From an uncultured Chitinophaga sp. (lineage in GTDB: Bacteria; Bacteroidota; Bacteroidia; Cytophagales; Cyclobacteriaceae), in contig CABHOK010000002.1 in assembly GCA_902168205.1 (NCBI GenBank), forward strand, positions 434,001 through 498,000: a stretch of DNA of 64,000 nucleotides, written 5' to 3'. Shown here one piece after another: positions 25,044 to 47,097 of this stretch; positions within the stretch are counted from its first letter, which is position 1; every line of letters begins with the position of its first letter. Under the pieces are notes generated by a model. The model made no database searches, was not told the origin of the DNA, and saw only the letters and a program-made list of their open reading frames with translations. A program made the translations under genes and the position numbers.

Positions 25044-25055
25044 TGACGCTTGTCA
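25044..25055 (-). promoter_or_regulatory. Proximal CRP/FNR-like operator of the mlaE operon
   Basis: TGACGCTTGTCA, a TGA-N6-TCA dyad at the class II position relative to the -7 element. Confidence 0.65.
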
Positions 25056-25066
25056 AGCACGGCTCA

Positions 25067-25078
25067 TGATAATTGTCA
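25067..25078 (-). promoter_or_regulatory. Distal CRP/FNR-like operator of the mlaE operon
   Basis: TGATAATTGTCA within CATGATAATTGTCATG; centre 23 bp from the proximal dyad. The same pairing recurs at two other promoters. Confidence 0.6.
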
Positions 25079-25086
25079 TGTACCCG

Positions 25087-25911
25087 TTAAGGAAGTACAC
25101 ACGTCCATACCGGCAGGTCTATATGATTTACTATATCTTCGGCAACGCTTCCGTTAAAGAAGTGCATAAAGCCCTTCCAGCCTTGTGTACCTATAGCGAG
25201 CATATCGGCATCCATATCCCTTGCAAACCGATATATACCATCTTCGGCATTATAGTCTGATCGTACGTGCAAGGTGTAATTGGTAAATTGATTGGTTGTT
25301 GCAAATTCCTGAAGTTCCCGGAAGGAGTCTGTATCGCCTTTGAACATGCGGGGTGTATTGACCCATAAAAAGATCAGGGTCGCGTTAAAGAATGCCTGTA
25401 GTTTTTTCAACTCATCGCAAAAGTGTTTATCAGTCCGGTCGGGTATCAGCGGAACAACAATATTGTTGATGGCACCTGCCGGATTTTTGCGAATGGCCCA
25501 CACCGGTATCTGTGCATGCCGTACAATTCGCTGGGTGTTGGAACCCCAGGTGTTGCCGTTGGTGCCATGCGTGCCCATTACAACCAGGTCAATACTGTTT
25601 TTATTTATATACTGCAGCACATCTTGCTGTAGTGAACCCGTGGTGTGGGTATATTTGACAGGCAACTCAAGCGGTGTATACTTTTCCCACATGGCTTGAA
25701 ATTTTTTCCGGGCATCCTCTTCCATCTCCTTCAAAAAGTTAATGTTAAATGCATAGCTGTGATCCAGCGTTGGGTTTCCATGCAGGAAGGTTATGTCAAG
25801 TATATATAGCACATGTATCTGCCCTTTACTTTTTCGGGCCATACTGACCGCAAATTTGTAAGCCTCCTGGGCGGGTGCTGAGAAATCGCATGGTACGAGT
25901 ATATTTTTCAT
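25087..25911 (-). CDS. Tandem universal stress protein (UspA), 274 aa
   Basis: Two complete Usp domains. The first starts MKNILVPCDFSAPAQEAYKFAV and has loop GTHGTNGNTWGSNTQRIVRH. The second has GTQGWKGFMHFFNGSVAEDIVNHIDLPVW. Both follow G-x2-G-x9-G-S, so ATP binding is likely in both halves. Cytosolic. It is divergent from the SRPBCC gene; the shared spacer carries one perfect and one degenerate palindrome of the window-wide motif. The gene ends just before the mlaE promoter. Confidence 0.94.
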   Translation of the reverse strand: MKNILVPCDFSAPAQEAYKFAVSMARKSKGQIHVLYILDITFLHGNPTLDHSYAFNINFLKEMEEDARKKFQAMWEKYTPLELPVKYTHTTGSLQQDVLQYINKNSIDLVVMGTHGTNGNTWGSNTQRIVRHAQIPVWAIRKNPAGAINNIVVPLIPDRTDKHFCDELKKLQAFFNATLIFLWVNTPRMFKGDTDSFRELQEFATTNQFTNYTLHVRSDYNAEDGIYRFARDMDADMLAIGTQGWKGFMHFFNGSVAEDIVNHIDLPVWTCVLP

Positions 25912-25964
25912 TCCGCAGGTGTTAATTTTTTTTACAAACTATATATGCCGTCCGGCAATACTTA

Positions 25965-25976
25965 TGATGGTAATCG
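25965..25976 (-). promoter_or_regulatory. Degenerate CRP/FNR-like operator of usp
   Basis: Minus strand CGATTACCATCA (one mismatch to TGA-N6-TCA); a TAGTTTG stretch begins 35 bp downstream. Confidence 0.4.
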
Positions 25977-26023
25977 CGGATTGACAAGATTTTGGTCATC
26001 ATGATAACATTCTCCCTCTGTGG

Positions 26024-26035
26024 TGATTTTCATCA
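26024..26035 (+). promoter_or_regulatory. CRP/FNR-like operator of the SRPBCC-nitroreductase genes
   Basis: GTGATTTTCATCAC, with core TGA-N6-TCA and one extra matching pair. A weak -7 (TACCTTAC) starts 36 bp further on, 27 bp before the SRPBCC start codon. Confidence 0.55.
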
Positions 26036-26086
26036 CGGCAACCGGCTGCGGGATGCGATTACCTTACCTGTGAATTTCGAATTGCC

Positions 26087-26791
26087 ATGAAAAAACTGAA
26101 GCCTTCACACAAATTGTTGATATGTACCGGGGTGGTCGTGTTCCTGTTGTTTATTCATCACTTCGTTTTCCGCCCTATATTTCTGGACTGGGGAGCACCG
26201 CCAGCATTGCAGTCGATGAGATTTCCGGGCGATACACTTACCAATGGGAGCGGCCATACACGGGCTGTTCTGATTCACGCAACACCCGAAGAGATATGGC
26301 CCTGGATCACGCAATTAGGACAGGACCGTGGTGGCTTCTATAGTTATCAATGGCTTGAAAATGTTTTTCGCAGTGATATGCGAAATGTTTACGTCATAAA
26401 ATCTGAATATCAATTTCCAAGGCAAGCCGGAGATACTATATGGCTTGCAAACAAAAACAAGTATAGCGGCAGGGGCTACCAGGTACTTGCAGCGGTAACA
26501 GCTTTTAAATCTTTTGTAATGGTTGGTGGTGATGACTACAGACGTATACAAAATGGCGATAAGGCGTGGGGTTCATGGGCATTTTATGTATACCCGGAAG
26601 ATGCGAACAATACCTGGCTTATCGTGAGATCTACCCAGGGGAGCACACATGTGGCCAACCGCCTTCTTCGGTATTTTTTCTACGAGGTGCCGCATTTTAT
26701 TATGGAAAGAAAGATGCTGGTTACATTGAAAAAGACGGTGGAGAAAAATCAAACTGTATTGCGTAAAAATGAAGTGGCCTCTGACCAATAA
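26087..26791 (+). CDS. SRPBCC-fold protein with N-terminal membrane anchor, 234 aa
   Basis: Likely a lipid- or polyketide-binding START/SRPBCC-type domain. A hydrophobic anchor (about 10-30, LLICTGVVVFLLFIHHFVF) precedes the fold. HTRAVLIHATPEEIWPWITQLGQDRGGFYSYQWLEN is the typical first helix-grip segment. It is followed by GGDDYRR and SWAFYVYPEDANNTWLIVRSTQ, the C-terminal strands. Function unknown. The gene precedes a nitroreductase gene by 10 bp and shares its predicted regulation by the palindrome upstream. Confidence 0.75.
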   Translation: MKKLKPSHKLLICTGVVVFLLFIHHFVFRPIFLDWGAPPALQSMRFPGDTLTNGSGHTRAVLIHATPEEIWPWITQLGQDRGGFYSYQWLENVFRSDMRNVYVIKSEYQFPRQAGDTIWLANKNKYSGRGYQVLAAVTAFKSFVMVGGDDYRRIQNGDKAWGSWAFYVYPEDANNTWLIVRSTQGSTHVANRLLRYFFYEVPHFIMERKMLVTLKKTVEKNQTVLRKNEVASDQ

Positions 26792-26801
26792 TGCTGCACT
26801 T

Positions 26802-27374
26802 ATGAACGATTTGCGGACAGTGATCTATAGCTACCAGCCTATACGCAAGTATAAAGATACCGGTATTGATAAATCTGTTATTGATCAATTTATTGAAGCC
26901 GGGTGTATGGCCCCGTCAGGAATGAATATGCAACCCTGGAAGTTTTATGTTGTAACCGATCAGGGATTGATCAACGCTATGGATGAACAGATATGTATTG
27001 TAGTCGCGGATATTTATAATACAACCGCTGTAGCAGAGTCGTTGAAGAATAAAAATCCGATTTTTCACGGAGCTCCCGTAGTAATTTTTATCACAGCTGC
27101 ACGGGAAAGCGAATGGGCAGCACTGGAAGTCGGGATGTGTGCCGAAAATATAGTGCTCTCCGCACAGGCTGCAGGCGTAGGATCTTGTCCTGTTGCCTGG
27201 GGAAAGTATATCGAACGCACGAGCCTGTATTCGCAATTAAATATTTTACCGGCAGACCATGTCGTATTATCCGTGATCGTAGGTGTTGCTGACGAGGTTC
27301 CTGTGGAACAGAAATCAAAAAAGAATGCCATATACTATATCCGTTCCGGCTTGCCGTTAAAGTATATGTCATAA
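26802..27374 (+). CDS. Nitroreductase-family FMN protein, 190 aa
   Basis: Cytosolic FMN-dependent NAD(P)H oxidoreductase. Signature residues: YQPIRKYKDTGIDKSVIDQFIEAGCMAPSGMNMQPWKFYVV (FMN-binding Arg and PSG-N-QPW) and GMCAENIVLSAQAAGVGSCPVAWG. The C-terminal VIVGVADE is also typical. I chose the ATG after the preceding stop; an earlier in-frame ATG would overlap the SRPBCC gene. Nitroreductases of this kind also occur in hypoxia/dormancy regulons, for example mycobacterial acg, which fits the stress-gene context. Confidence 0.92.
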   Translation: MNDLRTVIYSYQPIRKYKDTGIDKSVIDQFIEAGCMAPSGMNMQPWKFYVVTDQGLINAMDEQICIVVADIYNTTAVAESLKNKNPIFHGAPVVIFITAARESEWAALEVGMCAENIVLSAQAAGVGSCPVAWGKYIERTSLYSQLNILPADHVVLSVIVGVADEVPVEQKSKKNAIYYIRSGLPLKYMS

Positions 27375-27420
27375 CATAACGTATATATATCCGCCGGACT
27401 ACTAATCTAAAAAACTCTGT

Positions 27421-27972
27421 ATGAAAACGTTAATTGTTTACTACTCGTATACCAATAACAACGAAGCTCTTGCCAATGTAATTCGGGAGAAGCTTAAATG
27501 TGACATTCTCAAAATCGAAGAAGTAAAGAAGCGAAATGGTTTTACGATTGCTCTGGATCTGCTGTTTAACAGAACACCTAAGATCAAGGCCTCTTCATCG
27601 GATGTAGCCTTGTACAACCAGTATGTTTTTATTGCTCCTATATGGGCCGGTAAAATTGCATCACCTATGAGAAGCTTTTTTATACGAGATCGGTTTTACA
27701 TAAGTAATTACTCCTTTATTACGCTTTGTGGCGGACAGCCGGGACAGAAGGAGAAGCTGGTAACCAGTTTAACAAGACTTTTGGGACATGAGCCGGGTAT
27801 TGTACAGGAACTGCAAATAAATGATCTTCTTCCGGAGGATAAACGCAATACGGTTAAATATACTTCGGGCTACCGTGTTCAGCCGGGCGATATGCAAAAG
27901 TTTAATCCAGCTATTGACGATTTTTTGAATAGTGTAGAGGCTCTGTATGAACTAAAACGAATGACATTGTAA
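27421..27972 (+). CDS. Flavodoxin-family protein, 183 aa
   Basis: FMN-binding electron carrier of the flavodoxin-like fold. The phosphate-binding loop is VYYSYTNNNEALAN (residues 7-20), and FIAPIWAGKIASPMRSFF and FITLCGGQPGQKEKLV provide the isoalloxazine loops. Cytosolic. It lies 46 bp after the nitroreductase on the same strand; the two may share electrons. No separate operator is seen, so it probably belongs to the same transcript. Confidence 0.9.
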   Translation: MKTLIVYYSYTNNNEALANVIREKLKCDILKIEEVKKRNGFTIALDLLFNRTPKIKASSSDVALYNQYVFIAPIWAGKIASPMRSFFIRDRFYISNYSFITLCGGQPGQKEKLVTSLTRLLGHEPGIVQELQINDLLPEDKRNTVKYTSGYRVQPGDMQKFNPAIDDFLNSVEALYELKRMTL

Positions 27973-28238
27973 AAATTGAATCCTCCAATTTCGTATATAT
28001 TCTTACAGTATCTATATAGTAAAAAATAGCCGGTATATATATATGCGGTGAAGCATTCTTGGATGTATTGATTACAGCCGTAACGTAGTGGAAATAGTTA
28101 GCCCTGCGTTTTATTTTACCGGCCCGATTGCTCCATCCGAATGGTTTTGTTTTACGCTAATAGTCCAGTTCGTATTTCTGACTTTTTTTCTGATGATGCC
28201 AGTCGCCCGGCTCCGTTTCCCGACCGTTGTCATATTGT

Positions 28239-28652
28239 TTATAGCACTTTTTCGATTAATGCGAATAACTCCTCCTTATAGTTTCTGAACTGATCGTTGG
28301 CAGCTTGCAGGTCGTTCATAATGGCTGTATGCTCTTTGATGTATTCCGTTTTCAGTTCGTCTCTGGTCTCCAGCATATCGGCCAGTTTCTTTTCGTGGTG
28401 CCTTAGCTTTGACGCAAGTGTATCAACCAGTTCATCCTTATAGTAGATGATAATATTTTGCAGATGATGCATTTGCTTTTTTTCATCATCAGTCTTGAAC
28501 TGGCTTGCGTACTGATCGAGCAGCTTTTGAAAGAATATGAGCTCTTTCTTCCAGAGAACTGTTGCTGACAACCATTCCAGTGTTTTCATATGCTTGGTAA
28601 GCAGGGACGGCTGAAGTATATATTTTTTTGTTACGGCTGTTGGCGATATCAT
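28239..28652 (-). CDS. Hypothetical helical protein, 137 aa
   Basis: Not recognised. Almost entirely helical, with heptad-like stretches (ELIFFQKLLDQYASQFK and KLRHHEKKLADMLETRDELKTEYIKEHTAIMNDL). No signal or membrane segment. The first ATG is used because HMKTLEWLSATVLWKKEL seems to continue from it; a start 21 codons later is possible. A one-mismatch palindrome and a TAGCTTGG box with exact regulon spacing lie upstream, so it is probably a member of the stress regulon. Confidence 0.65.
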   Translation of the reverse strand: MISPTAVTKKYILQPSLLTKHMKTLEWLSATVLWKKELIFFQKLLDQYASQFKTDDEKKQMHHLQNIIIYYKDELVDTLASKLRHHEKKLADMLETRDELKTEYIKEHTAIMNDLQAANDQFRNYKEELFALIEKVL

Positions 28653-28952
28653 ATAGGTTGTGTTTAGTTTTCTAAAACCAAGCTACTATCGGCATTTGGT
28701 TTGCCCGATGATAATAATCTTTTTTCAACAGGATTTAAATCAGTGAATTGGCGTTTACAGGATGCTTCTTAGCTAGTTTTTGCGTATATTCGTTTAACAA
28801 AAATCTGACAGTGCTGAACAGCAATCCATATCCCTGCCGGGAGCGGGGTTTCGTTTAGGTATCTACCATGGGAAGGTGAGCTGTGTCTTGCGCAAGCTAA
28901 GCCGGGAAGAAAAAGCACTTTAATATCAGAATACGCAACGTAATCCACCCCC
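28653..28952. other. Intergenic region between divergent genes
   Basis: Contains the promoter of the leftward helical protein gene. No clear promoter is seen for the rightward receiver protein and no gene is visible. Confidence 0.4.
28709..28720 (-). promoter_or_regulatory. Degenerate CRP/FNR-like operator
   Basis: Minus strand AGATTATTATCA, one mismatch to TGA-N6-TCA. TAGCTTGG (7 of 8) starts exactly 35 bp on. Confidence 0.5.
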
Positions 28953-29315
28953 ATGAAAACAGTATTAATCATTGAAGATAACCTGGAGATACGCGAGAAC
29001 ACCGGGGAGATACTTGAGCTCACAGGGTTCAACGTTTTGAGTGCCGACAACGGACGCTATGGAATTGACCTGGCGATGGATGTTATACCCGATGTTATAC
29101 TCTGCGATATTATGATGCCTGGTATAGATGGTTACGAAGTTATCAGGCAGTTAAAATCAAACCCGATAACAGCATCTATACCCTTTATATATCTCACGGC
29201 AAGCGGTGAAAAGAGCGAAGTAAAATTGGCCATGGATATGGGAGCCTGCGGGTATATACGCAAACCGTTTGATGTGGATGAACTGGTGAATCTGATCCAT
29301 ACTTATACACCCTAG
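28953..29315 (+). CDS. Single-domain response regulator, 120 aa
   Basis: Stand-alone receiver domain. The acidic pair is E8 D9, the phosphoacceptor Asp52 (VILCDIMMPGIDGYEV), Thr in YLTASG, Lys in IRKPFDVDEL. It is close in sequence to the receiver of the CRP-type fusion regulator 6 kb away (both have ILCDIMMPxxDGYxV and an IEDNxE opening), so the two may be phosphorylated by the same kinases. No output domain; a phosphate sink or protein-protein switch is likely. Followed by hsp20. Confidence 0.95.
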   Translation: MKTVLIIEDNLEIRENTGEILELTGFNVLSADNGRYGIDLAMDVIPDVILCDIMMPGIDGYEVIRQLKSNPITASIPFIYLTASGEKSEVKLAMDMGACGYIRKPFDVDELVNLIHTYTP

Positions 29316-29475
29316 CCGAATATATCTGCTTGTTGGCACGATAGCTGCCATGTCATTTTATAATTCTCTGGTATGTAGCTGTTCCAGCGATATATACTAC
29401 TCGGTCTTTTGATCTGTGCCTGCAAATCCTCCGGTCCGTCTTGGGACAACAGACGATAAAAATCTTTTATGATGC

Positions 29476-29487
29476 TGATGGCCGTCA
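29476..29487 (+). promoter_or_regulatory. CRP/FNR-like operator of hsp20
   Basis: TGATGGCCGTCA; TACTTTTA (7 of 8 to the -7 box) begins 36 bp on, about 30 bp before the start codon. Confidence 0.65.
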
Positions 29488-29529
29488 TCGGCAAAACGGT
29501 GCCGGTAAGTATACTTTTAGAACAAAAAC

Positions 29530-29537
29530 AAGGAGGT
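29530..29537 (+). promoter_or_regulatory. Full Shine-Dalgarno sequence of hsp20
   Basis: AAGGAGGT ends four bases before the ATG. Near-perfect SD sites are rare in this phylum, and the other starts in this window lack them, which points to deliberately strong translation. Confidence 0.75.
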
Positions 29538-29541
29538 AAAT

Positions 29542-29997
29542 ATGAACTTAACAACAAAAAAAAATGGAGGGCTTCCCTCACTGATGTCCGATTTCTTTGG
29601 TGCATCTTTATTTGACCGGGATATCTTCGGTTCGGAAAGCGATTTATTCCCCTCACGTTTGGGTATAAATATACCGACAGCAAACGTTTCGGAAACACCA
29701 AAGGAGTTTAAGCTTGAACTCGCTGCTCCGGGATTGGAACGAAAGGATTTCAACGTTGAGGTAGAGAATCATATTCTCAGAATCAGCGCAGAGAAAGAAG
29801 AAGAAAAGAACGAAAAGGACGGAGGATACTCCAGGCGGGAATACTCATTTAATTCCTTTACCCGGTCGTTCAGTTTACCGGAGAATGTAAAGGAAGGAAA
29901 CATTGACGCCAAGTATGAGAATGGTGTTCTGAAGGTATCCATTCCGAAGGAGAAAGAAACTCCTGTGAAACTGGTGCAAAAAGTATCGGTGTCCTGA
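29542..29997 (+). CDS. Small heat-shock protein Hsp20/alpha-crystallin, 151 aa
   Basis: ATP-independent holdase. The alpha-crystallin domain spans about residues 48-140 (PTANVSETPKEFKLELAAPGLERKDFNVEVENH ... AKYENGVLKVSIPKE). It includes the A-x-x-x-n-G-v-L signature, and the N-terminal arm is Phe/Asp-rich. Preceded by a strong RBS and by an operator/promoter of the window-wide type. Hsp20 proteins are leading members of dormancy regulons such as DosR (hspX), consistent with the surrounding Usp genes. Confidence 0.97.
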   Translation: MNLTTKKNGGLPSLMSDFFGASLFDRDIFGSESDLFPSRLGINIPTANVSETPKEFKLELAAPGLERKDFNVEVENHILRISAEKEEEKNEKDGGYSRREYSFNSFTRSFSLPENVKEGNIDAKYENGVLKVSIPKEKETPVKLVQKVSVS

Positions 29998-30025
29998 TTT
30001 AATTAGATGCAGGTCAGTGGAGTAG

Positions 30026-30056
30026 CAAAGGGTGGTATACACTGCCCTTTGTTTTC
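30026..30056 (+). terminator. Terminator after hsp20
   Basis: CAAAGGG and CCCTTTG enclose a 12-nt loop and are followed by TTTTCT. Confidence 0.65.
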
Positions 30057-30115
30057 TGGTGACACATAAATGCATATCGGTATACCAGATCGAATACAAT
30101 AACTACAGAATAATT

Positions 30116-31285: not shown

Positions 31286-31335
31286 GCGATAGCATCATAG
31301 TATATATTTCAGGGTATATATACCGATGGCACGGT

Positions 31336-32613: not shown

Positions 32614-32626
32614 GCGTATGGATGAC

Positions 32627-33457: not shown

Positions 33458-33527
33458 AGCTGAAAATTTTCAAGGCAAAATAGTGACTCACAACAGGTAA
33501 AAGAATGACATCGGTTTTACCGGAGAA

Positions 33528-33539
33528 TGATTTACGTCA
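33528..33539 (-). promoter_or_regulatory. CRP/FNR-like operator of the leftward usp-mgtC genes
   Basis: Minus strand TGACGTAAATCA, identical to the distal site of the fusion regulator gene. A weak -7 (TTCTTTTA) starts 34 bp downstream. Confidence 0.6.
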
Positions 33540-33572
33540 TGCGGACACTTACCGAAAATCATCATCGGTATG

Positions 33573-33584
33573 TGATAAGCGTCA
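33573..33584 (+). promoter_or_regulatory. CRP/FNR-like operator of the rightward usp gene
   Basis: TGATAAGCGTCA; TACATTGC, a poor -7 match, begins 35 bp on. Centre 45 bp from the divergent gene's site. Confidence 0.55.
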
Positions 33585-33629
33585 TGATAATTTTTGTGTA
33601 GCCAGTATACATTGCGATTAAAAAGTAAC

Positions 33630-34650: not shown

Positions 34651-34662
34651 TGACGTAAATCA
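34651..34662 (+). promoter_or_regulatory. Distal CRP/FNR-like operator of the fusion regulator gene
   Basis: TGACGTAAATCA in an A/T-rich context; 22 bp (centre to centre) from the proximal site. Confidence 0.6.
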
Positions 34663-34672
34663 TTTTTTTGAA

Positions 34673-34684
34673 TGATAGGACTCA
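34673..34684 (+). promoter_or_regulatory. Proximal CRP/FNR-like operator of the fusion regulator gene
   Basis: TGATAGGACTCA; TAGTTTAG (7 of 8) starts 36 bp on. Suggests autoregulation. Confidence 0.6.
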
Positions 34685-34840
34685 TTCCTATGCTGCCGCT
34701 TCTGCACTTAGTTTAGCATTTGTTAATAAAGCAACATTGTTTAGTTGAAAATGATTTGATCTTGAAAATTTCATTTTCAGGGCAGCCGGTTTGCGTTTAA
34801 CGTATTGATCTTTATATAGTCTTTAACCCCAAACCTATAT

Positions 34841-35899
34841 ATGACCTATAATATCCTGCTGATTGAAGACAATATTGAGATGGCGGAGAACATCGCCAGT
34901 ATACTCGAGCTTGCCAAATACAATGTTACACATGCACCGAACGGAAAGATTGGTGTTGACATGGCGCAGCGGAACCCCCCGGACCTGATATTGTGCGATA
35001 TTATGATGCCGGAACTGGATGGCTACGGAGTACTTCATATTCTGAATAAAGATGCCGACACGGCCAATATACCTTTCATCTTCCTCACTGCAAAGGCTGA
35101 CAAAACAGATTTTCGAACCGGAATGAATCTCGGTGCAGATGACTATATCACCAAGCCTTTTGATGGTGTCGACTTATTGAAGGTAATTGAAATGCGCCTG
35201 AAGAAACACGAGTTTATGAAGACAGCCTTCGGAAACAGCGCGCAGGATGTAAGCGCCTTTTTTAGCAAGACGCGCGAGCTGAAGGATTTTCAGAGGCTGG
35301 CGGAGAACAGACCGCTACGTTGCTTCAAGAAGAAGGATCTGATCTTTATGGAGGGGCAAACTCCCAGCGACCTGTATTTCATTGAGAAGGGGCAGGTAAA
35401 AACGTATAAAGTTAACTACGATGGCAAGGAGCTGATCACCGGTATACACCGTGAAGGCGAGTTCCTGGGATTTGTGCCGTTATTGGAAGACAGAGCTTAC
35501 AACGAGAATGCTGAAGTGCAGGAAGATTCTAAAATTACCATTATTCCTAAAGCCGATTTTATCACGTTAATATATTCCAGTAAAGATGTTGCCCGCAAGT
35601 TCATAAAAATGTTGTCGAACAACATCGAGGAAATGGAGAACCGGTTACTTGATATAGCCTACCAATCCGTGCGTCAGCGTGTAGCCAGTGCGTTGCTAAA
35701 GATGAACCAGCGATTTTCAGGTATCAACAAAGACGGGCTGATCACTATAGCCCGTAAAGATATTTCCAGTATTGTGGGGACAGCAACGGAGTCTCTCAAC
35801 AGGACACTGGCCGATTTCAAAGACGAAGGTCTCATTGAGATTTCAGGTGAAGGATTGAAGCTGGTTGATGCCGGCAGGCTCGAGAAGTTGCTTCACTGA
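34841..35899 (+). CDS. Response regulator with CRP/FNR output (receiver - cNMP-like - HTH), 352 aa
   Basis: Fusion transcription factor. Receiver about 1-120 (E9 D10, phosphoacceptor Asp53 in LILCDIMMPELDGYG, Lys in ITKPFD). The cyclic-nucleotide-binding-like beta-roll is about 150-262 (FKKKDLIFMEGQTPSDLYFIEKGQVKTY). The HTH_Crp winged helix is about 270-345, with recognition helix IVGTATESLNRTLADFKDEG. Compared with E. coli CRP, the Glu and second Arg that read TGA are kept (about E317 and R321), while the first Arg is Thr. The Arg-Ser of the cAMP pocket and FNR cluster cysteines are absent, so phosphorylation is the probable switch. A CHASE3-type kinase gene follows. Candidate regulator of the TGA-N6-TCA promoters. 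Confidence 0.95.
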   Translation: MTYNILLIEDNIEMAENIASILELAKYNVTHAPNGKIGVDMAQRNPPDLILCDIMMPELDGYGVLHILNKDADTANIPFIFLTAKADKTDFRTGMNLGADDYITKPFDGVDLLKVIEMRLKKHEFMKTAFGNSAQDVSAFFSKTRELKDFQRLAENRPLRCFKKKDLIFMEGQTPSDLYFIEKGQVKTYKVNYDGKELITGIHREGEFLGFVPLLEDRAYNENAEVQEDSKITIIPKADFITLIYSSKDVARKFIKMLSNNIEEMENRLLDIAYQSVRQRVASALLKMNQRFSGINKDGLITIARKDISSIVGTATESLNRTLADFKDEGLIEISGEGLKLVDAGRLEKLLH

Positions 35900-35936: not shown

Positions 35937-35948
35937 TGATGAATGTCA
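35937..35948 (+). promoter_or_regulatory. CRP/FNR-like operator of the histidine kinase gene
   Basis: TGATGAATGTCA; TATCTTGG (7 of 8) starts 36 bp on, 17 bp before the kinase start codon. Confidence 0.6.
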
Positions 35949-35996
35949 TTGAATGTGCCGTCAATGCATTGTTATCTTGGAGCAATACGTGAAGTA

Positions 35997-37721
35997 ATGA
36001 TCTCCTTTAAAGTTACGCTGGGGTTTTTATTTGGACTGCTGATTACGGCGGTGCTGTTTCTGGGCGTATTGTGCTACAAGAAGAATGCTGATGCCCTCAG
36101 GTCATCCGCATGGGTAAGGCATACCCATGCTGTAATTCATACAGCCGATGAAATATCAATAGCCTATAATCATATATATACCTATACACTGGCTTTTCTG
36201 TTTAGAAGTGATTCTGCTTCGCGGTCGGAATATGCAGCGTCCCGGCAGATTTTAACAGCCCGGTTAACTGAAATGAAATACCTGGTGCAGGATAACCCGA
36301 AGCAGCAACAACGGATAGACTCGCTTGGGCAGTTCATACAACAGCTCACCTTGGTGACAGATTCTCTTGTCCTCGCACCAATCTCATCTACGGCTGTTCA
36401 TAAAGCTAAAGGTCTTGTGCGTTACACGGTTCTCGCGAATGTTATTATGCCCAGGATTGAACAGATCAAACAAACCGAGCAGCAGTTACTTGCCTTGCGT
36501 GAGGCAGAGCACCGGGAAAGCACGGAGCGGTTTAAGAATATATTCTCTTTGTTGCTCCTCGGAATTGTTATTCTACTGGCGGCTGCATTCTTATCGACCC
36601 GGTATAATTTTAACAAGCGCATGCATGTGCAGGATCAACTGGAGCGAACCAATGTACTTTTTGAAAAAGTTTTCTATGATAGTCCGATAGCCATCGTCAT
36701 CAGCGAGTATAACAGTGGTAAAATTTTGAATTGCAATAAGGTATTTGCATCCATGGTAAACTATAATGTAAACGAGGTTATCGGAAAGACTACGGCTGAA
36801 TTACGAATTTTTGAAAACATTGAGCAGCGTAAACAAGTTGTGGAAGGAGCCGTAAAGAATGGAATGGCAAGACGGAACGAAGTATATATCAAGCCCCGCG
36901 ATAAAGAACCGATCTATATATCCATTCATGCACATGAAGTACCGTTGTACGATCGCAAATGCCTGCTAAGTGCCATAATTGATTTGTCGACTCACAAGCA
37001 AGCTGAAGACGATATAAAGCGCGCGCTTGAAAAGGAGATCGAGCTGAATAAACTGAAATCGGGTTTTGTTACCTTGGCCTCGCACGAGTTCAGAACACCG
37101 TTGACAACTATTTTATCATCGGCATTTTTGCTGGAGAACTATTCCTTTGGTGAGAACCAGGAGAAATCTGTGAAACACCTTCATAAAATTAAATCTGCCG
37201 TGGGCAGCCTTACCGCTATATTAGATGATTTCCTTTCTGTAACGAAGATTGAGGAAGGGCAGGTGAGAGCCCATCACCAGGCTATAAATATTAAAAAGTA
37301 CCTGGAGGATCTTTGTAACAACCTTCAGGCGCTTACGAAGCAGGGCCAGACTATATATTATACTCATTCCGGTGATACCGTAGTGATTACGGATCCAACG
37401 CTGTTGGGCAATATTGTTAATAACCTGGTGACGAACTCGATTAAATACTCGCCGGAAAATTCACCGATCTATGTGTCGTCTGATGTGAACAGCAAGATTC
37501 ACCTGTCTGTTCAGGATAAAGGTATAGGTATACCCGAGGCTGACCAGAAACATCTTTTCGATCGGTTCTATCGCGCTTCCAACGCAGGTACAGCACAGGG
37601 AACTGGTCTTGGGTTACATATTATGAAACACTATGTAGAAATGCTGAACGGCTCTATCATACTTCAAAGTAAACCAGGCCAGGGTACGCATGTACAAATT
37701 GCGCTTACGCGGATGGATTGA
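35997..37721 (+). CDS. Membrane sensor histidine kinase (CHASE3-like, PAS, HisKA, HATPase), 574 aa
   Basis: Probable partner of the preceding fusion regulator. Transmembrane helix at about 4-25, a CHASE3-like extracytoplasmic helical domain (about 28-180) and a second helix (about 187-205). PAS follows (about 220-350; VFYDSPIAIVISEYNSGKILNCNKVF). HisKA has ASHEFRTPLTTIL. The HATPase has NNLVTNSIKYSPE, DKGIGIPEAD and GTGLGLHIMKHYVEM. The ATG giving MISFKVTLGF was preferred to an upstream in-frame ATG, which would overlap the operator. Regulated by its own operator, so the pair forms a feedback loop. Signal unknown. Confidence 0.93.
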   Translation: MISFKVTLGFLFGLLITAVLFLGVLCYKKNADALRSSAWVRHTHAVIHTADEISIAYNHIYTYTLAFLFRSDSASRSEYAASRQILTARLTEMKYLVQDNPKQQQRIDSLGQFIQQLTLVTDSLVLAPISSTAVHKAKGLVRYTVLANVIMPRIEQIKQTEQQLLALREAEHRESTERFKNIFSLLLLGIVILLAAAFLSTRYNFNKRMHVQDQLERTNVLFEKVFYDSPIAIVISEYNSGKILNCNKVFASMVNYNVNEVIGKTTAELRIFENIEQRKQVVEGAVKNGMARRNEVYIKPRDKEPIYISIHAHEVPLYDRKCLLSAIIDLSTHKQAEDDIKRALEKEIELNKLKSGFVTLASHEFRTPLTTILSSAFLLENYSFGENQEKSVKHLHKIKSAVGSLTAILDDFLSVTKIEEGQVRAHHQAINIKKYLEDLCNNLQALTKQGQTIYYTHSGDTVVITDPTLLGNIVNNLVTNSIKYSPENSPIYVSSDVNSKIHLSVQDKGIGIPEADQKHLFDRFYRASNAGTAQGTGLGLHIMKHYVEMLNGSIILQSKPGQGTHVQIALTRMD

Positions 37722-37959
37722 GTTGTTTGTATCACAACGCGCTGTAACAGTCACCTCACTTATATAGCAATGGAAATAAGGATGATTGTCAGATGAATGG
37801 TGAGCCATGTATACCTGCAGTACGTTTCACAGGTAGTGTTTTGTAAATCCGGTGATGTCGACAGTCAGGTGGTACGGCCGTTTCCGGCTTTGTCCATGAC
37901 GCTTCTGTGCGGGCGTATGATTTATATCAGGTTGGAGGAAACCGATTATGACGAACGTA

Positions 37960-37971
37960 TGATTACCGTCA
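37960..37971 (+). promoter_or_regulatory. CRP/FNR-like operator of the phosphoribosyltransferase gene
   Basis: TGATTACCGTCA directly abuts a -33-like TATG; TATCTTTG (perfect -7, 37995-38002) starts 35 bp from the dyad's first base. The clearest class II arrangement of the set. Confidence 0.75.
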
Positions 37972-38013
37972 TATGTATAGGGGAGTGGTCATAGTATCTT
38001 TGGATAAAATAAT

Positions 38014-38670: not shown

Positions 38671-38671
38671 G

Positions 38672-38703: not shown

Positions 38704-38791
38704 GCCTATATGCACCATCACCCGGATCGTATATATTATCGTATATGCGACACCTGTATATTGTATACTATTTTCGGTGCGCTGCATTGTA

Positions 38792-39235: not shown

Positions 39236-39293
39236 AAAATAAAAGTGTTTATAGGTTGCTAATAGCTATGACATTCAGAATTGTTTGAATTTA

Positions 39294-39791: not shown

Positions 39792-39871
39792 AGTGGATGA
39801 GATCTTTTTTGATATAGTCGGAATTTTTCCGGGTGCCACGGTGTCAAAGCAAATGCCAGCAACATCGTTAT

Positions 39872-39900
39872 GAAAAGCGAAAGATATACTTTCGCTTTTC
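39872..39900. terminator. Terminator after the BON gene
   Basis: GAAAAGCGAAAG and CTTTCGCTTTTC, a perfect 12-bp stem with loop ATATA. Confidence 0.75.
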
Positions 39901-39926
39901 AGTTGGTGTCTTCAGTGCGTTGCTAT

Positions 39927-40601: not shown

Positions 40602-40690
40602 AGACTTTCCTGTTTTTGGTTGAACAAAATGATATGCACGACATTTGTGTGCGATGGCATAAAACTAGTGTATGATGAGGTGATGTGATA

Positions 40691-40702
40691 TGATCGTGAT
40701 CG
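40691..40702 (-). promoter_or_regulatory. Degenerate CRP/FNR-like operator of the BON gene
   Basis: Minus strand CGATCACGATCA (one mismatch); TAGTTTTA (7 of 8) starts exactly 35 bp on. A much weaker copy (CGACTAAAATCT) sits 22 bp further upstream. Confidence 0.5.
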
Positions 40703-40813
40703 TCTGTGATCAAGATTTTAGTCGTGCTGTTTGTTGGCAGGATGCACCGGTATATATAGTATACATGCCAGCGCTGAGAAATTAGTGTTGTCTTCGTATC
40801 TGAGGTGTTTTGA

Positions 40814-42517: not shown

Positions 42518-42993
42518 CAGAAGATGTCTTTTATTTTATAGCGAACATTGTTATAAGAAAAGGTATCGCCTTTGGTTTTACCTTCCATCGCTTTGTATAT
42601 CGGGCTAAGCGTTGATATACCTATATATGGATGGTCTTCGACCGTAATTTTTTCGAGACTTGCCGAGACAAATAACGTGTAGTGATCGGTTACCACAACG
42701 GCCCCAAGCGTTGCCTGGTTGCGGCTACTATCGCACGTAGGGTAAAGCTTTTCAAGTATATCTAACTCTGCCTTTGCAAATTCCAGCTGCGCATGAAGCG
42801 TGTTGATCTCGTTTGTTTGTGCGGTATACGCGGCAATGTCTTTCTGGTCGTATGATTCATTGTTATGCAGTGCGTCACGGGAGGTTAGCTCCCTGATTCT
42901 TCGTGTAAAATCGTGCAGCAGGAATTGTTGCTTGGCTATACACGCATGGAGCAGTTTTTTGCGTAAGCCTTTTTTTTCGGTTGTGGTTATCAT
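42517..42993 (-). CDS. GreA/GreB-like transcription factor domain protein, 158 aa
   Basis: Gre-type protein. The N-terminal two-thirds is a helical pair with coiled-coil character (QTNEINTLHAQLEFAKAELDILEKL). The C-terminal FKBP-like GreAB domain reads LGAVVVTDHYTLFVSASLEKITVEDHPYIGISTLSPIYKAMEGKTKGDTF. Such Rnk/GreA-like proteins bind RNA polymerase. The acidic DxxE tip of true GreA is not evident, so RNA cleavage activity is doubtful. The ATG giving MITTTEKK was chosen; another lies six codons upstream. Coupled to the amylase gene and preceded by a perfect TGA-N6-TCA palindrome. Confidence 0.8.
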   Translation of the reverse strand: MITTTEKKGLRKKLLHACIAKQQFLLHDFTRRIRELTSRDALHNNESYDQKDIAAYTAQTNEINTLHAQLEFAKAELDILEKLYPTCDSSRNQATLGAVVVTDHYTLFVSASLEKITVEDHPYIGISTLSPIYKAMEGKTKGDTFSYNNVRYKIKDIF

Positions 42994-43050
42994 GAAGTCA
43001 ATTTGCAGCACACTTCTCTAACATGTGGTAACCGGGGTCATCAAACCCGT

Positions 43051-43062
43051 TGATATTAGTCA
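43051..43062 (-). promoter_or_regulatory. CRP/FNR-like operator of the Gre-amylase genes
   Basis: TGATATTAGTCA, a perfect dyad, but no convincing -7 box at the usual distance; only CACATGTT is found there. Confidence 0.45.
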
Positions 43063-43375
43063 CGAATTGGCGTTATGTTCAAATGAGACCGACCAACAAT
43101 GCTCCTATTGTACCGGACAAACTACGAGACTATATCCTTTGATGCATACCAAGGCAAAGATGTATGCCGAATGGGACAATTTAAGAAACTACTGGCAGAG
43201 CACAGCCCTTCTATCCACGAAGCCCGGGGTAAAAAACCGTTCAGGACTATGTCCGTATCAATGAACCGGAGATAGCGAAGTAGAAGGAACTTTAAAAAAA
43301 TGAAAAGGGTGGAACGCGATAACCTGCCCGCAGCTATAGCGGTATAAATAAATGGATAAAACTCTTGCCTATGGA

Positions 43376-43387
43376 TGACAACGCTCA
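43376..43387 (+). promoter_or_regulatory. CRP/FNR-like operator of ytxH
   Basis: TGACAACGCTCA; TAAATTTG (perfect -7, 43411-43418) starts 35 bp on, 27 bp before the start codon. Confidence 0.75.
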
Positions 43388-43444
43388 TCAGGTGACGACA
43401 AACGGTACTATAAATTTGATTCAAAGGATATAATAATCAACATT

Positions 43445-43699
43445 ATGAATAATGGAAAAGCAATATTAGCGGTGCTTGCCGGTGTAGCGGCAGGTGCTGC
43501 ATTGGGTGTTCTGTTTGCACCTGACAAAGGTTCTGATACACGTAAAAAAATATCACGGAAAGGAGAGGACCTTGCCAATGCTCTCAGTGATAAAATTGAT
43601 GACAGGTTTGACGAACTATTGGCAGTTGTTTCCGGAAAGGTAAAGAGGCACGTATTGCCCGGCGAAGCAACTGTTAACCGAAAGGAAATGGTGGACTGA
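43445..43699 (+). CDS. YtxH-family protein, 84 aa
   Basis: Small protein with an N-terminal Gly/Ala-rich hydrophobic segment (AILAVLAGVAAGAALGVLFAPDKGSDTRKKI), the YtxH signature including the LFAP-KGS-TR turn. A charged amphipathic helix follows. Membrane-associated; general-stress linked in Bacillus, function unknown. It has an operator and a perfect -7 element upstream and a strong terminator downstream, so it is a single-gene unit of the regulon. Confidence 0.93.
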   Translation: MNNGKAILAVLAGVAAGAALGVLFAPDKGSDTRKKISRKGEDLANALSDKIDDRFDELLAVVSGKVKRHVLPGEATVNRKEMVD

Positions 43700-43723
43700 A
43701 CAGTTCACCTTTTTTCTGGTTCC

Positions 43724-43761
43724 AAGAATACGCTATAGTGTATTATATAGCGTATTCTTTC
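43724..43761. terminator. Terminator after ytxH
   Basis: AAGAATACGCTATA and TATAGCGTATTCTT: a perfect 14-bp stem with an 8-nt loop. Confidence 0.8.
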
Positions 43762-43913
43762 ATAGCGTAACAGCTACGTCAGGTGATCGAATTCTTTCAA
43801 CTGATTATTATCCGTGAATACTACCTGACCGTTTTTTGCGCGAGCTACTCGTCTCTGTATATTCTGTATGGGAACATCAATTTCAGTTGTTTTCATTCTT
43901 TCCTCTTTTATAT

Positions 43914-44393
43914 TTACTCCGGCATCGGTATAATGTTGTCCTGCGATATGTTATCTGTTGGCAGAGCCTCTTTATGTTGTTGGGATGGATGATCATAATG
44001 TAAATTATCAACGGCTGTGCGGAGACGGTTATTCACCTCATTTGCAAATTCCCACAGATGATCGGATGTAGTTATCTGTCTGATCATTTGCTGCGGGTTA
44101 ACGGCTGAAACTTCAACCGTGTTGTTCTCATGCTCCTGGATAACAATATTGCAGGGAAGCATAAGGCCCATGTGTGAATCGATGGTCACTGCTTGGTAGG
44201 CAAATTGCGGATTGCAGGCACCCAGAATTTTGTACTTTCTGAAATTTAAAGCAAGCTTTTGCCTGAACGTATCTTTCAGGTCGATGGTGGTAATTATGCC
44301 AAAACCTTGCTGCTGGAGATTCTGGGTAAGCTTTTGAATTACTTCTTCAAAAGGTATCGTTACTATACGGGAATAGTAGTAGCTCATATGCAT
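43914..44393 (-). CDS. DUF302 protein, 159 aa
   Basis: DUF302 fold: MSYYYSRIVTIPFEEVIQKLTQNLQQQGFGIITTIDLKDTF, then YKILGACNPQFAYQAV and MGLMLPCNIVIQEHENNTVEVSAVNP, all family hallmarks (including the conserved G-A-C-N-P). The roughly 30-residue tail is polar. Cytosolic; function unknown, though often near redox or stress genes. A one-mismatch palindrome (TGATGCTGGTCT, 44439-44450) lies upstream but with a poor -7 box, so regulon membership is uncertain. ATG two codons later is also possible. Confidence 0.9.
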   Translation of the reverse strand: MHMSYYYSRIVTIPFEEVIQKLTQNLQQQGFGIITTIDLKDTFRQKLALNFRKYKILGACNPQFAYQAVTIDSHMGLMLPCNIVIQEHENNTVEVSAVNPQQMIRQITTSDHLWEFANEVNNRLRTAVDNLHYDHPSQQHKEALPTDNISQDNIIPMPE

Positions 44394-44598
44394 AGGGTTT
44401 TATGCATGCATATTAGCTATATCTATAGCTAATTGCTGTGATGCTGGTCTTGCATACTTCAGACTTTTGTCACGGTGTGTGTCCACAGGGATGTTAACTC
44501 GTGGGAGTGTTGGTCAGGCAATAATTTGTGCCTGCCGTTATACCGGATAGTGTAGATTATACCCTCGTATAGAAAAATGCAGGCTATACTTTATAGTA

Positions 44599-47010
44599 TC
44601 AATACCTGTTTTGTGTATCGCTGGCTACTTCCAGAAGCGGCTTTATTTTTACTTCAGCTTCGCTGATATTTTGAATGCCACGAACGATAGCATCCGGGTT
44701 GAATGAAACAGAATCGATTCCACATGACACCAGAAACCGCGCAAAGTCAGGATAGTCGCTGGGGGCTTGTCCGCATAGCCCTACTTTTACTCCTTTTTGA
44801 TGCGCAACATCGATAAGATTTTGTATAAGCATTTTAACGGCAGCATTGCTTTCATCAAAAAGGCCGCTGACTATTGCCGAGTCTCGGTCGATACCAAGTG
44901 TTAGCTGTGTGAGGTCGTTGGAGCCGATCGAGAATCCGTCAAAGAGTTGCGCGAACTCGCTTGCCAGTAAAATATTACTGGGCACCTCTGCCATTACATA
45001 CACATCAAGGTTGTTCTGTTTTCTTTTTAATCCGAAGTTTTCCATAGTTTGCAAAACCTGCTGTGCTTCTGCTACGGTGCGACAGAACGGTATCATAACT
45101 TTTACGTTGGACAGTAACATTTCTTCACGCACTTTTTTTACCGCGGCACATTCTAGACCAAATCCCTCGCGGTATCGCTCGTGGTAATATCGCGATGCAC
45201 CGCGAAATCCAAGCATAGGATTTTCTTCTTCAGGCTCGAAGTACTTTCCTCCAAGAAGCTTCATATATTCGTTTGTCTTGAAGTCGCTCATTCGTACAAT
45301 AACATCCTTTGGATAAAATGCTGCCGCCACCAGGCCTATGGATTCTGCGAGCTTGTCAATAAAGAATTGCTTCTTATCGGCATAGCGTCTTGTTAGCGCA
45401 TCGATCTGTTTTTTTTCTGTATCACCGGGAAGGTCACTATATTTTACCAATGCCATGGGATGCACCTGTATAGTATTGCTGATCATGAATTCCATTCGGA
45501 GCAGACCTACACCGGTATTGGGATATGTGGCATAATGCAATGCTCTTAGCGGATCAGCCAGAATGAACATGGCACCTGTTCGTATTTTCGGTATTGATTG
45601 CAGTTCAATTGTTTTTTCATGCCATGGTATATGCCCATTGTAAACACAGCCTTCATCGCCACCTGCACAGGATACAGTGATCCGTTGTCCGTCCGTCAGC
45701 TTTTCAGTTGCGTTCATCGTGCCGACTACAGCAGGAATACCGAGCTCGCGTGCTACTATGGATGCGTGGCTTGTTCGCCCTCCTTTATTGGTAACTATAC
45801 AAACAGCTTTTTTCAGCAAGGCATTCCAGTCGGGGTTCGTAATATCCGCTACAATGATATCGCCCTGTTTAACGTTGGCGCTATCCGCGAGCGACTTGAC
45901 AATAGCGACATTGCCGGTGACGATGGAACGTCCTACGGCTTTCCCTACCAGTATAGGAGGCTGCTCTGAAATCATTTTGTATTCTGTAATCGCGATGGAC
46001 TTTCTATTTGTATGTACAGTTTCGGGGCGGGCCTGCACGATATATAGTTTATTCGTAGCACCATCTTTGGCCCACTCTATGTCCATCGGCATACGATAAT
46101 GTTTTTCGATTTGAAGCGACCACTTCCCTAAAAGATGTACTTCTTCATCGGAGAGAATGAACTGGTCGCGAAGCGAAGGTGTTGTTGTGCGCCACATCGT
46201 ATTGTTTTCACCTTCTCCATATACCAGCATTTGTTCTTTACTGCCCAGGCTTCTATATACTATACATTCGCGGTTGTATTCGATGCTGTTTTTAAACAGG
46301 TAATATTCATCGGTGTTTACCGCGCCCTGCACAACACTTTCGCCTAACCCCCAGGCTCCGGTTATATATATAATGTTCTTGTTTCCATTTTCCGGTTCGA
46401 TGGTAAATATTACACCGGCACTGCCGATGTCGGATCGTACCATCCGTTGAACCGCTACAGAGAGCCCCACTTGCATGTCGGTAAAATTATTATCCATGCG
46501 GTACTTGATTGCCCGATCGTTAAACAAAGATGCATAGCACTGCCTGATCGCTTTGAGTACAGATTCGGAACCCGTTACGTTTAAGTACGACTCATGTTGT
46601 CCTGCGAAGCTTGCCGTGGGAGAGTCTTCAACCGTAGCACTGCTGCGTACGGCCACCGAGTGACTCAATCCCTTTTCCATCAATTGACTATAATTTTCTT
46701 TAACCGCTTTGGCTACTGCTTCCGGTAAATTGCCGGAGAGAACAAGTTCGCGGCAACGTGCTCCCACACTGGCCAGGTTTGATAACGACTGCCGGTCAAG
46801 TGAATTCAGTATGTCCTGGATGCGCTGGGTCAGATTATTATACTCCAGAAAGTGATAATACGCATCAACACTCACTGCGAATCCGTCAGGCACCTGGATG
46901 CCGAGGCCGGAGAGGTTCTGTATCATTTCTCCCAGCGATGCGTTCTTGCCTCCGACTTTAGCGGTGTCTTTTGCAGAGAGCGTATTGAATGGAAATATAT
47001 ATTGCTGCAT
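44599..47010 (-). CDS. ppsA: Phosphoenolpyruvate synthase (pyruvate, water dikinase), 803 aa
   Basis: Converts pyruvate, ATP and water to PEP, AMP and phosphate. The N-terminal ATP-grasp domain is about 15-340 (KVGGKNASLGEMIQ; VRSSATVEDSPTASFAGQHESYLN). The swivelling phosphohistidine domain follows, with GGRTSHASIVARELGIPAVVG (catalytic His). The C-terminal PEP/pyruvate TIM barrel has IGSNDLTQLTLGIDRD and VGLCGQAPSDYP (catalytic Cys). Full length. Two palindromes upstream with exact spacing place it in the stress regulon, suggesting a gluconeogenic switch when the regulon is on. Confidence 0.96.
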   Translation of the reverse strand: MQQYIFPFNTLSAKDTAKVGGKNASLGEMIQNLSGLGIQVPDGFAVSVDAYYHFLEYNNLTQRIQDILNSLDRQSLSNLASVGARCRELVLSGNLPEAVAKAVKENYSQLMEKGLSHSVAVRSSATVEDSPTASFAGQHESYLNVTGSESVLKAIRQCYASLFNDRAIKYRMDNNFTDMQVGLSVAVQRMVRSDIGSAGVIFTIEPENGNKNIIYITGAWGLGESVVQGAVNTDEYYLFKNSIEYNRECIVYRSLGSKEQMLVYGEGENNTMWRTTTPSLRDQFILSDEEVHLLGKWSLQIEKHYRMPMDIEWAKDGATNKLYIVQARPETVHTNRKSIAITEYKMISEQPPILVGKAVGRSIVTGNVAIVKSLADSANVKQGDIIVADITNPDWNALLKKAVCIVTNKGGRTSHASIVARELGIPAVVGTMNATEKLTDGQRITVSCAGGDEGCVYNGHIPWHEKTIELQSIPKIRTGAMFILADPLRALHYATYPNTGVGLLRMEFMISNTIQVHPMALVKYSDLPGDTEKKQIDALTRRYADKKQFFIDKLAESIGLVAAAFYPKDVIVRMSDFKTNEYMKLLGGKYFEPEEENPMLGFRGASRYYHERYREGFGLECAAVKKVREEMLLSNVKVMIPFCRTVAEAQQVLQTMENFGLKRKQNNLDVYVMAEVPSNILLASEFAQLFDGFSIGSNDLTQLTLGIDRDSAIVSGLFDESNAAVKMLIQNLIDVAHQKGVKVGLCGQAPSDYPDFARFLVSCGIDSVSFNPDAIVRGIQNISEAEVKIKPLLEVASDTQNRY

Positions 47011-47032
47011 GGTGACAGATGTTAGGTGTATG

Positions 47033-47040
47033 TAAACTTA
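47033..47040 (-). promoter_or_regulatory. -7 element of ppsA
   Basis: Minus strand TAAGTTTA (7 of 8), first base 35 bp from the proximal dyad. Confidence 0.55.
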
Positions 47041-47063
47041 TCTTTCACCACCGTGACAAACGA

Positions 47064-47075
47064 TGAGCGTTATCA
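47064..47075 (-). promoter_or_regulatory. Proximal CRP/FNR-like operator of ppsA
   Basis: Minus strand TGATAACGCTCA, perfect TGA-N6-TCA. Confidence 0.65.
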
Positions 47076-47085
47076 TCAGTATTAC

Positions 47086-47097
47086 TGATTATAGTCA
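47086..47097 (-). promoter_or_regulatory. Distal CRP/FNR-like operator of ppsA
   Basis: TGATTATAGTCA, centre 22 bp from the proximal dyad. Confidence 0.6.

Follow-up and report, generated by a model that had tools for sequence, protein, structure and literature searches.

Does a short palindrome that recurs in front of the stress genes of a bacterial contig mark a common control, and which protein would read it? The question is raised by a stretch of 64,000 nucleotides from an uncultured Chitinophaga sp. (contig CABHOK010000002.1, placed by GTDB in the Cyclobacteriaceae), here called the window, which is G000:C2:434001-498000 of its own 7.3 Mb genome (G000). Between window positions 25044 and 47097, a section referred to below as the block, genes for universal stress proteins (Usp), Hsp20, a nitroreductase, phosphoenolpyruvate (PEP) synthase, a phosphoribosyltransferase, MlaE and others stand behind such sites, as does a gene for an HPF-type factor outside the block. 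By a dyad we mean a perfect TGA-N6-TCA, and by a box a sequence resembling TAnnTTTG, scored over its 6 defined bases. An earlier note on this sequence had taken the dyads of the block for the mark of a stress regulon under a single CRP/FNR-type regulator.

The window contains 33 dyads, compared with a mean of 19.7 and a maximum of 31 in shuffled sequences; the count of 33 was reached in 0 of 100 shuffles. The block holds 18 rather than the 14 first reported, of which 16 are non-coding by our gene calls and 2 (32958, 45279) are intragenic. The enrichment itself is real: the non-coding density is 2.24/kb in the block (16 in 7,138 bp) compared with 0.41/kb (28 in 68,206 bp) in 20 control stretches of the same genome, a 5.5-fold difference (p = 1.3e-6). 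The gene caller is crude, scoring 32% of the window as non-coding, and part of this "non-coding" DNA is consequently coding; of the six dyads outside the block that were scored as non-coding in the density count, at least one (18578) actually lies within the HPF gene. These counts by themselves give some room to chance or composition, as TGA and TCA are common, the window leans towards AT, and an excess of 33 dyads over the 31 of the richest shuffle is modest when taken alone.

The distance between dyad and box bears directly on this explanation. It was measured in 12 island regions (408 kb from 11 genomes or records), each with a receiver-CRP gene, that is, a gene for a response regulator with a receiver fused to a CRP part, 63–100% identical to the one in the window. 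The histogram omits L050, L053 and L055, which lie on the same contigs as regions fetched from G002, G001 and G030, and a paralogue region of the own genome, listed with the islands, was not counted. With boxes of at least 5/6, 64 pairs fall at two distances, 47 at 35 bp and 17 at 36 bp, compared with a mean of 2.6 pairs at other distances (24–33 and 38–47 bp); a further peak at 57–59 bp (25, 9 and 7) in the islands represents another dyad upstream. The own-genome control (440 kb) has 1 pair at 35 bp and 2 at 36 bp, with single distances there holding 0–4, and a box of at least 5/6 stands at 35/36 bp from 1.65% of random positions in the block. The same peak at 35 bp (82 pairs, mean elsewhere 6.8) appears in 73 loci around distant receiver-CRP genes. 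Such sharp peaks, flat internal controls and repetition in separate distant loci leave chance or composition with practically no credibility.

The register of 34–36 bp that had been described for every block promoter except that of Gre holds in part. Boxes of at least 5/6 are found in it for mlaE, hsp20, the receiver-CRP gene, the kinase, the phosphoribosyltransferase, the ytxH-like gene and ppsA. Those of the SRPBCC-like gene and of both usp genes reach only 4/6, and the Gre promoter has no box in register, exactly as had been stated.

The promoters of Bacteroidota depart from the E. coli model. In class II CRP promoters the activator site is centred at -41.5. The sigma-A box TAnnTTTG of Flavobacterium psychrophilum is placed at -12 to -5 in the relevant part of PMC9723704. 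Because the dyad lies 35–36 bp from a box that would occupy -12 to -5, the proximal dyad has its predicted centre at -41.5, the class II position. The suggestion of a CRP-type dyad at a class II position is thus borne out: it is common to the stress-gene block, is conserved in relatives, and is accompanied inside the block by a regulator with a CRP-type helix-turn-helix (HTH) that has a site of its own. A protein bound there might conversely repress, by blocking polymerase at an overlapped promoter. For a repressor one would expect sites at varied positions, whereas the constant spacing of 35 bp from the -7 box matches class II activation, and we consider repression highly improbable. Loss of the -33 element, considered as a possible mark of activator dependence, does not set these promoters apart: TTG counts are flat in 142 dyad promoters and likewise in 76 ordinary TAnnTTTG boxes.

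The unit is usually a pair of dyads and not the single dyad of the earlier description, which holds for the dyad itself and missed a second one, often degenerate, 22–23 bp upstream of the proximal dyad, at a predicted position of about -63.5. A distal dyad of at least 4/6 is present at 22/23 bp in 42 of 51 proximal sites from seven regions of the own genus, Chryseolinea and Fulvivirga, and at the control offset of 30/31 bp in 2 of 51; the corresponding figures in the distant loci are 45/91 and 13/91. Spacing between perfect dyads in the islands is 22 bp in 19 cases and 23 bp in 7 (26 in total), and in the 73 distant loci 22 bp in 51 cases and 23 bp in 13 (64 in total), compared with no pair at 22/23 bp in the own-genome control. 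Arrays of three dyads also occur, at 33528–33584 of the window (the middle one degenerate) and at G021:C10:303111-303167. The distal consensus in the genus islands, GAnAAAAATC, has an A-rich centre, and the C-terminal domain of the RNA polymerase alpha subunit binds at about the position of the distal element in class II CRP promoters, so that the element could be an A-rich alpha contact upstream of a single class II dimer. Such a contact is difficult to reconcile with GA and TC held in exact dyad register, with the many distal copies that are perfect dyads at 22/23 bp (the 64 pairs of the distant loci) and with the three-dyad arrays, and it appears improbable to us. The motif is real and conserved, and both more structured and sharper in its geometry than first noted; the computational checks attached to the original reading, enrichment and conservation in relatives, were run and did not refute it.

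A candidate for the protein that reads the sites is encoded in the block. The receiver-CRP response regulator (34841–35899, + strand) has 352 residues, with Pfam matches to a receiver (Response_reg, PF00072, 1.3e-26), a cNMP_binding domain (PF00027, 3.7e-19) and a CRP-type HTH (HTH_Crp_2, PF13545, 1.6e-13), and is 78–88% identical to proteins in Parachryseolinea silvisoli, Chryseolinea lacunae, Fulvivirga kasyanovii and UBA5867 records, which puts the organism close to Chryseolinea. The cNMP-binding-type domain and the CRP-type HTH place it in the CRP/FNR superfamily. Its residues E317 and R321 are shared by all 12 proteins of the alignment, and we take them to correspond to E181 and R185 of E. 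coli CRP, the recognition-helix residues that read TGA. D53, T83 and K105 of the receiver are nearly invariant in the alignment, and the protein is predicted to be capable of phosphorylation. As regards an FNR-type 4Fe-4S cysteine cluster, the CRP part of 11 aligned receiver-CRP proteins has no conserved cysteine. The segment of the cAMP pocket, compared by eye, reads NENAEV in the window protein and often ESA in relatives, in place of the R-S of CRP. In a comparison with solved structures the protein matches best a Crp/Fnr regulator (2gau) and the PleD receiver.

The promoter in front of this gene (34651–34716, + strand) has distal and proximal dyads at 34651–34662 and 34673–34684, 22 bp apart, and the box TAGTTTAG at 34709–34716, at a distance of 36. 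A spaced site stands directly before the receiver-CRP gene in G000, G001, G002, G004, L051 and L052 (at 35 bp in the last five), and before the adjacent upstream kinase gene instead in G003, one G021 region and L054; the remaining 3 of the 12 regions have no site listed before either gene. Other receiver-CRP genes examined (L144, L062, L113) likewise have a kinase gene directly upstream. In the window the gene for the proposed partner, a CHASE3-PAS histidine kinase by Pfam (35943–37721, + strand), follows, with a promoter at 35937–35980 (+ strand) that consists of a single dyad and the box TATCTTGG at 36 bp and lacks a distal dyad (1/6). Since this promoter overlaps the first codons of the called frame, the true start of the kinase is probably downstream of 35980; the match of the frame in G004 starts only at residue 19. 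A free-standing receiver protein is encoded just 5' of hsp20 (28953–29315, + strand), follows a histidine kinase gene in G001 and G004, and hints at a possible phosphorelay.

The block's own receiver-CRP protein is a likely activator of the block sites. We propose, with a probability of roughly 0.7, class II promoters with a helper site, at which the receiver-CRP activates a module for survival under low oxygen or energy limitation. The CRP/FNR-type activator would bind, perhaps cooperatively, as two head-to-tail dimers, one on the perfect dyad at -41.5 and one abutting it at about -63.5 on the often degenerate, A-rich copy, and would recruit the Bacteroidota sigma-A RNA polymerase to the TAnnTTTG -7 box. 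The local receiver-CRP, the most likely activator in the block, would be switched through phosphorylation by the adjacent CHASE3-PAS or another kinase, not through an Fe-S cluster, and would activate its own gene. The module would comprise Usp, Hsp20, the nitroreductase, PEP synthase, the phosphoribosyltransferase and the nearby ribosome hibernation factor.

How closely the motif follows this regulator was surveyed in 59 genomes of the order, 30 with a full-length receiver-CRP match and 29 without. Single sites (TGAYN5TCA with TAnnTTTR at 35/36 bp) number 579, compared with 261 at the shifted control spacing of 39/40 bp; the counts are 334 vs 138 in the genomes with receiver-CRP and 245 vs 123 in those without. 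The single class II dyad is general in the order and is not tied to receiver-CRP. Because its excess extends to genomes without a full-length match, the idea of a motif tied to one regulator is rejected, and the earlier statement that one regulator turns on all these genes does not follow from the motif. Tandem sites number 287 at 22/23 bp compared with 124 at the control spacing of 26/27 bp, with 211 vs 78 where receiver-CRP is present and 76 vs 46 where it is not (p = 2e-4), and the 14 genomes without receiver-CRP outside the window's family have 2 vs 18. The own genome has 12 vs 1. Three of the 12 are inside the window, so that the motif is not confined to the block; of the 9 further perfect tandem sites, 3 lie 8–14 kb from a 50%-identical receiver-CRP paralogue and 1 lies beside a stand-alone CRP gene. 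Among the 73 distant receiver-CRP loci, a set that includes many from Pontibacter, a spaced single site is seen in 37 and a perfect tandem at 22/23 bp in 34, compared with 0 of 73 for a perfect tandem at 26/27 bp; 49 loci have one or the other type of site. The tandem form accompanies the receiver-CRP group, though not exclusively.

A denser, second type of island is seen in G021:C12:463126-516668 (L251–L254), with 12 tandem dyads within 54 kb and, next to the sites, genes that include cytochrome c, Usp, OsmC, L,D-transpeptidase, metallo-hydrolase and M50-CBS protease. The flavobacterial loci L113, L118 and L124 (Arenibacter, Algibacter and Gelidibacter) have 23 spaced sites, all at exactly 35 bp, and a number of them closely resemble TGACCTAGGTCATTT; the dyads at L113:2784 and L113:12074 are each flanked on both sides by boxes at 35 bp.

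The stand-alone CRP gene of the own genome (L255:10134-10877) has a tandem site (G000:C12:95059, or L255:10070-10081) 35 bp before TAAATTGG, with boxes at 35 bp both ways, 5/6 towards its own gene and 4/6 in the opposite direction, which suggests that the gene is autoregulated. This protein, another stand-alone CRP/FNR paralogue or several CRP proteins together may read the sites, with the receiver-CRP as one among the users. The site before its own gene favours such an account, as do the identical half-sites and the recognition-helix E and R of the stand-alone CRP and the 20 tandem sites of G022, a genome without a full-length receiver-CRP match. It is countered by the clustering of block sites around the receiver-CRP gene, itself site-bearing, by the greater genome-wide tandem excess where receiver-CRP is present, and by the joint absence from G005 and G006 of the receiver-CRP orthologue and the three module proteins examined. 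We regard it as unlikely.

These two congeners have no close receiver-CRP orthologue (best 50–52%). PpsA had no match in G005 and G006 in a search that included no positive genome (the same protein matched G001 and G004 in a separate search), Hsp20 had five matches only, at 27–44% identity, and BON had partial matches only, at 36% over 53–84 residues, so that the regulator and the three module proteins examined are missing together. Four of the five Hsp20-like loci in these genomes (L259–L262) have no dyad with a box better than 4/6 at 34–36 bp. Single-site counts are 17 vs 16 in the control for G005 and G006, compared with 78 vs 21 for G000–G004 (p = 0.004). As natural knock-outs for the sites the two genomes are only partly usable, because the target genes examined are absent as well.

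The gene set of the block largely recurs around the orthologous regulator in G001–G004, Chryseolinea lacunae and Fulvivirga kasyanovii; the order of the genes is almost unchanged in G001 and differs in others. Elsewhere in the own genome, tandem promoters precede genes for HemN (406.9 bits, cut-off 325; box only 4/6), Usp, pyridoxamine-oxidase-like, L,D-transpeptidase-like and acetyl-CoA hydrolase family proteins, D-2-hydroxyacid dehydrogenase, rhodanese and the stand-alone CRP, and in G021 RIC is found behind a single dyad. The 67 genes downstream of paired sites in the distant loci include 13 hemA, 8 Usp, 7 PAS kinases and 4 Hsp20, along with 3 CcoG-like and 3 CcoI-like domains (CcoG and CcoI being our interpretation of Pfam domains). 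Control genes came from the same distant loci, 60 being used after 6 of 66 were dropped as receiver-CRP genes themselves, and neither hemA nor Hsp20 is among the 25 of their 78 families shown. The gene for glutamyl-tRNA reductase (hemA) follows the receiver-CRP gene at a short distance and has a promoter with paired dyads in L059, L061, L062, L064, L071–L074, L077–L079, L085 and L086. As the targets include heme synthesis, cbb3 assembly and oxygen-independent coproporphyrinogen oxidase, the gene content suggests that the signal is low oxygen. In F. psychrophilum, as presented in part of PMC9723704, cbb3 oxidase rises under oxygen limitation and heme synthesis enzymes are also up.

Several observations weigh against activation of this module by the receiver-CRP. 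Boxes are weak at three block promoters and lacking at Gre. The single-site excess is similar with and without receiver-CRP (p = 0.29 between groups). Tandem sites lie beside genes whose match is limited to the CRP part in G000, G022, G018, G019, G036 and G010 (G018 and G036 also carry receiver-CRP elsewhere), so that the sites do not single out one binder; a requirement for the receiver in site pairing is rejected. No box of at least 4/6 stands at 34–37 bp from the tandem sites of the regions fetched from G019 and G036, 24 of the 73 distant receiver-CRP loci have neither type of site, and the sites of L113, L118 and L124 are nearly all single dyads. Of the 12 island regions, no more than 6 have a site directly before the receiver-CRP gene. 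The three kinases examined (L144, L062, L113) have PAS or receiver input domains and no diagnostic oxygen sensor. Usp genes are not borne out as preferred direct targets, being directly downstream of sites in 8 of 67 cases vs 12 of 60 controls, and all 13 hemA targets come from Pontibacter, Adhaeribacter and Rufibacter loci. Finally, promoters of related species share ancestry, and the counts and p-values are therefore not independent.

Of the other promoters of the block, that of mlaE (25013–25078, - strand) has its distal dyad at 25067–25078, the proximal one at 25044–25055 (23 bp) and the box CATATTTG at 25013–25020, at a distance of 35. At the SRPBCC-like/nitroreductase promoter (26002–26067, + strand) a distal dyad of 5/6 (26002–26013) precedes the proximal one (26024–26035) and the weak box TACCTTAC (4/6) at 36; the nitroreductase was confirmed by Pfam, and the SRPBCC label, which is that of the earlier note, had no match in the Pfam search. 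The hsp20 promoter (29454–29519, + strand; gene at 29542–29997, + strand, by Pfam) combines a degenerate distal dyad, CGATAAAAATCT (4/6), with a proximal one at 29476–29487 and the box TACTTTTA at 36, and sites also precede hsp20 in G001, G002 and G004. The divergent usp promoters (33498–33615, both strands) have dyads at 33528–33539 and 33573–33584 with boxes of 4/6 (at 35 on the + strand, at 34 on the - strand) and share one degenerate dyad (33550–33561, 4/6) between the perfect ones, 22 and 23 bp away; the usp genes of the block are Usp by Pfam. The phosphoribosyltransferase promoter (37937–38002, + strand) has a distal dyad of 4/6 at 23 bp, a proximal one at 37960–37971, the box TATCTTTG at 35 and an extra dyad at 37918. 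Before the ytxH-like gene, a label likewise carried over, the promoter (43354–43418, + strand) has the distal GGATAAAACTCT (4/6), a proximal dyad at 43376–43387 and the box TAAATTTG at 35. The ppsA promoter (47033–47097, - strand) has dyads at 47086–47097 and 47064–47075 (22 bp) and the box TAAGTTTA at 35, and serves PEP synthase (44599–47010, - strand; NCBIfam PRK06464 and TIGR01418, above cut-off).

It had been stated that no perfect intergenic copy exists outside the block; two dyads with boxes at 35 bp, 18680 (- strand) and 18754 (+ strand), show otherwise. The first belongs to a promoter at 18649–18713 (- strand), with the distal AGACCAAAATCA (5/6), the proximal dyad at 18680–18691 and the box TAGATTTG at 35, and the gene with this paired-dyad promoter, for an HPF/S30AE ribosome hibernation factor (18276–18590, - strand; PF02482, 6.2e-15), lies more than 6 kb from the block as first delimited. 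Its divergent partner (18732–18796, + strand) has the distal TGATGATAATCC (5/6), the proximal dyad at 18754–18765 and the box TACTTTCG at 35; the gene behind it, from about 18821, had no Pfam match. Similar sites occur in G001 and G004.

These promoters resemble class II CRP/FNR promoters in the dyad at a predicted -41.5, the TGA/TCA half-sites and the retained recognition-helix E and R, and are unlike them in the -7 box TAnnTTTG, the second dyad abutting at 22–23 bp and the receiver fused to the CRP part. F. psychrophilum sigma-A promoters have the same box, and the main text of PMC9723704 has 0 occurrences of CRP or FNR. No paper on CRP/FNR-type low-oxygen control or on such a promoter type in Bacteroidota was found in the open-access literature with the terms used.

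The layout recalls DosR/DevR of Mycobacterium and OsdR of Streptomyces, with a two-component regulator, closely paired sites (42 of 51 here) and the proximal site at the promoter. According to the parts of the sources cited, DevR/DosR sites are closely packed, the proximal one overlapping the -35 element, and binding to the second site needs determinants outside the DNA-binding domain (PMC3029386); DevR targets include universal stress proteins, nitroreductases and heat shock proteins, and those predicted for OsdR in the vicinity of osdR include a nitroreductase and pyruvate phosphate dikinase besides universal stress proteins (PMC5069765). DosR belongs to the NarL family, whereas the regulator here has a CRP-type HTH and not a NarL-type domain. 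The likeness lies in layout and gene set and not in regulator descent; with its different DNA-binding family, the system does not count as a DosR system. Nor do the data support a part for the receiver in pairing like that in DevR, since tandem sites also occur beside CRP genes that lack a receiver. A further parallel, from another phylum, is the low-oxygen-activated (lxa) locus of Burkholderia cenocepacia, a cluster of 50 genes linked to persistence under limited oxygen; it codes for six Usp, one heat shock protein and one protein with a BON domain, with no regulator or promoter motif named in the part of PMC6127331 used here.

A tentative extension, to which we would give slightly less than even odds, is a Bacteroidota-wide counterpart of DosR in which phosphorylated receiver-CRPs would act as two abutting dimers (-41.5 and -63.5) at TAnnTTTG promoters and switch on a portable kit for survival at low oxygen, with heme synthesis, cbb3 assembly, Usp, Hsp20, PEP synthase and ribosome hibernation. 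If true, evolution would have arrived at a DosR-like promoter layout and gene set by way of a DNA-binding family unrelated to that of DosR, in convergence with the control of dormancy in mycobacteria. The fixed pattern (dyad, 22–23 bp, dyad, 35 bp, TAnnTTTG) can be searched for, points to an activator open to testing and may yield candidate regulons of uncultured species from sequence alone.

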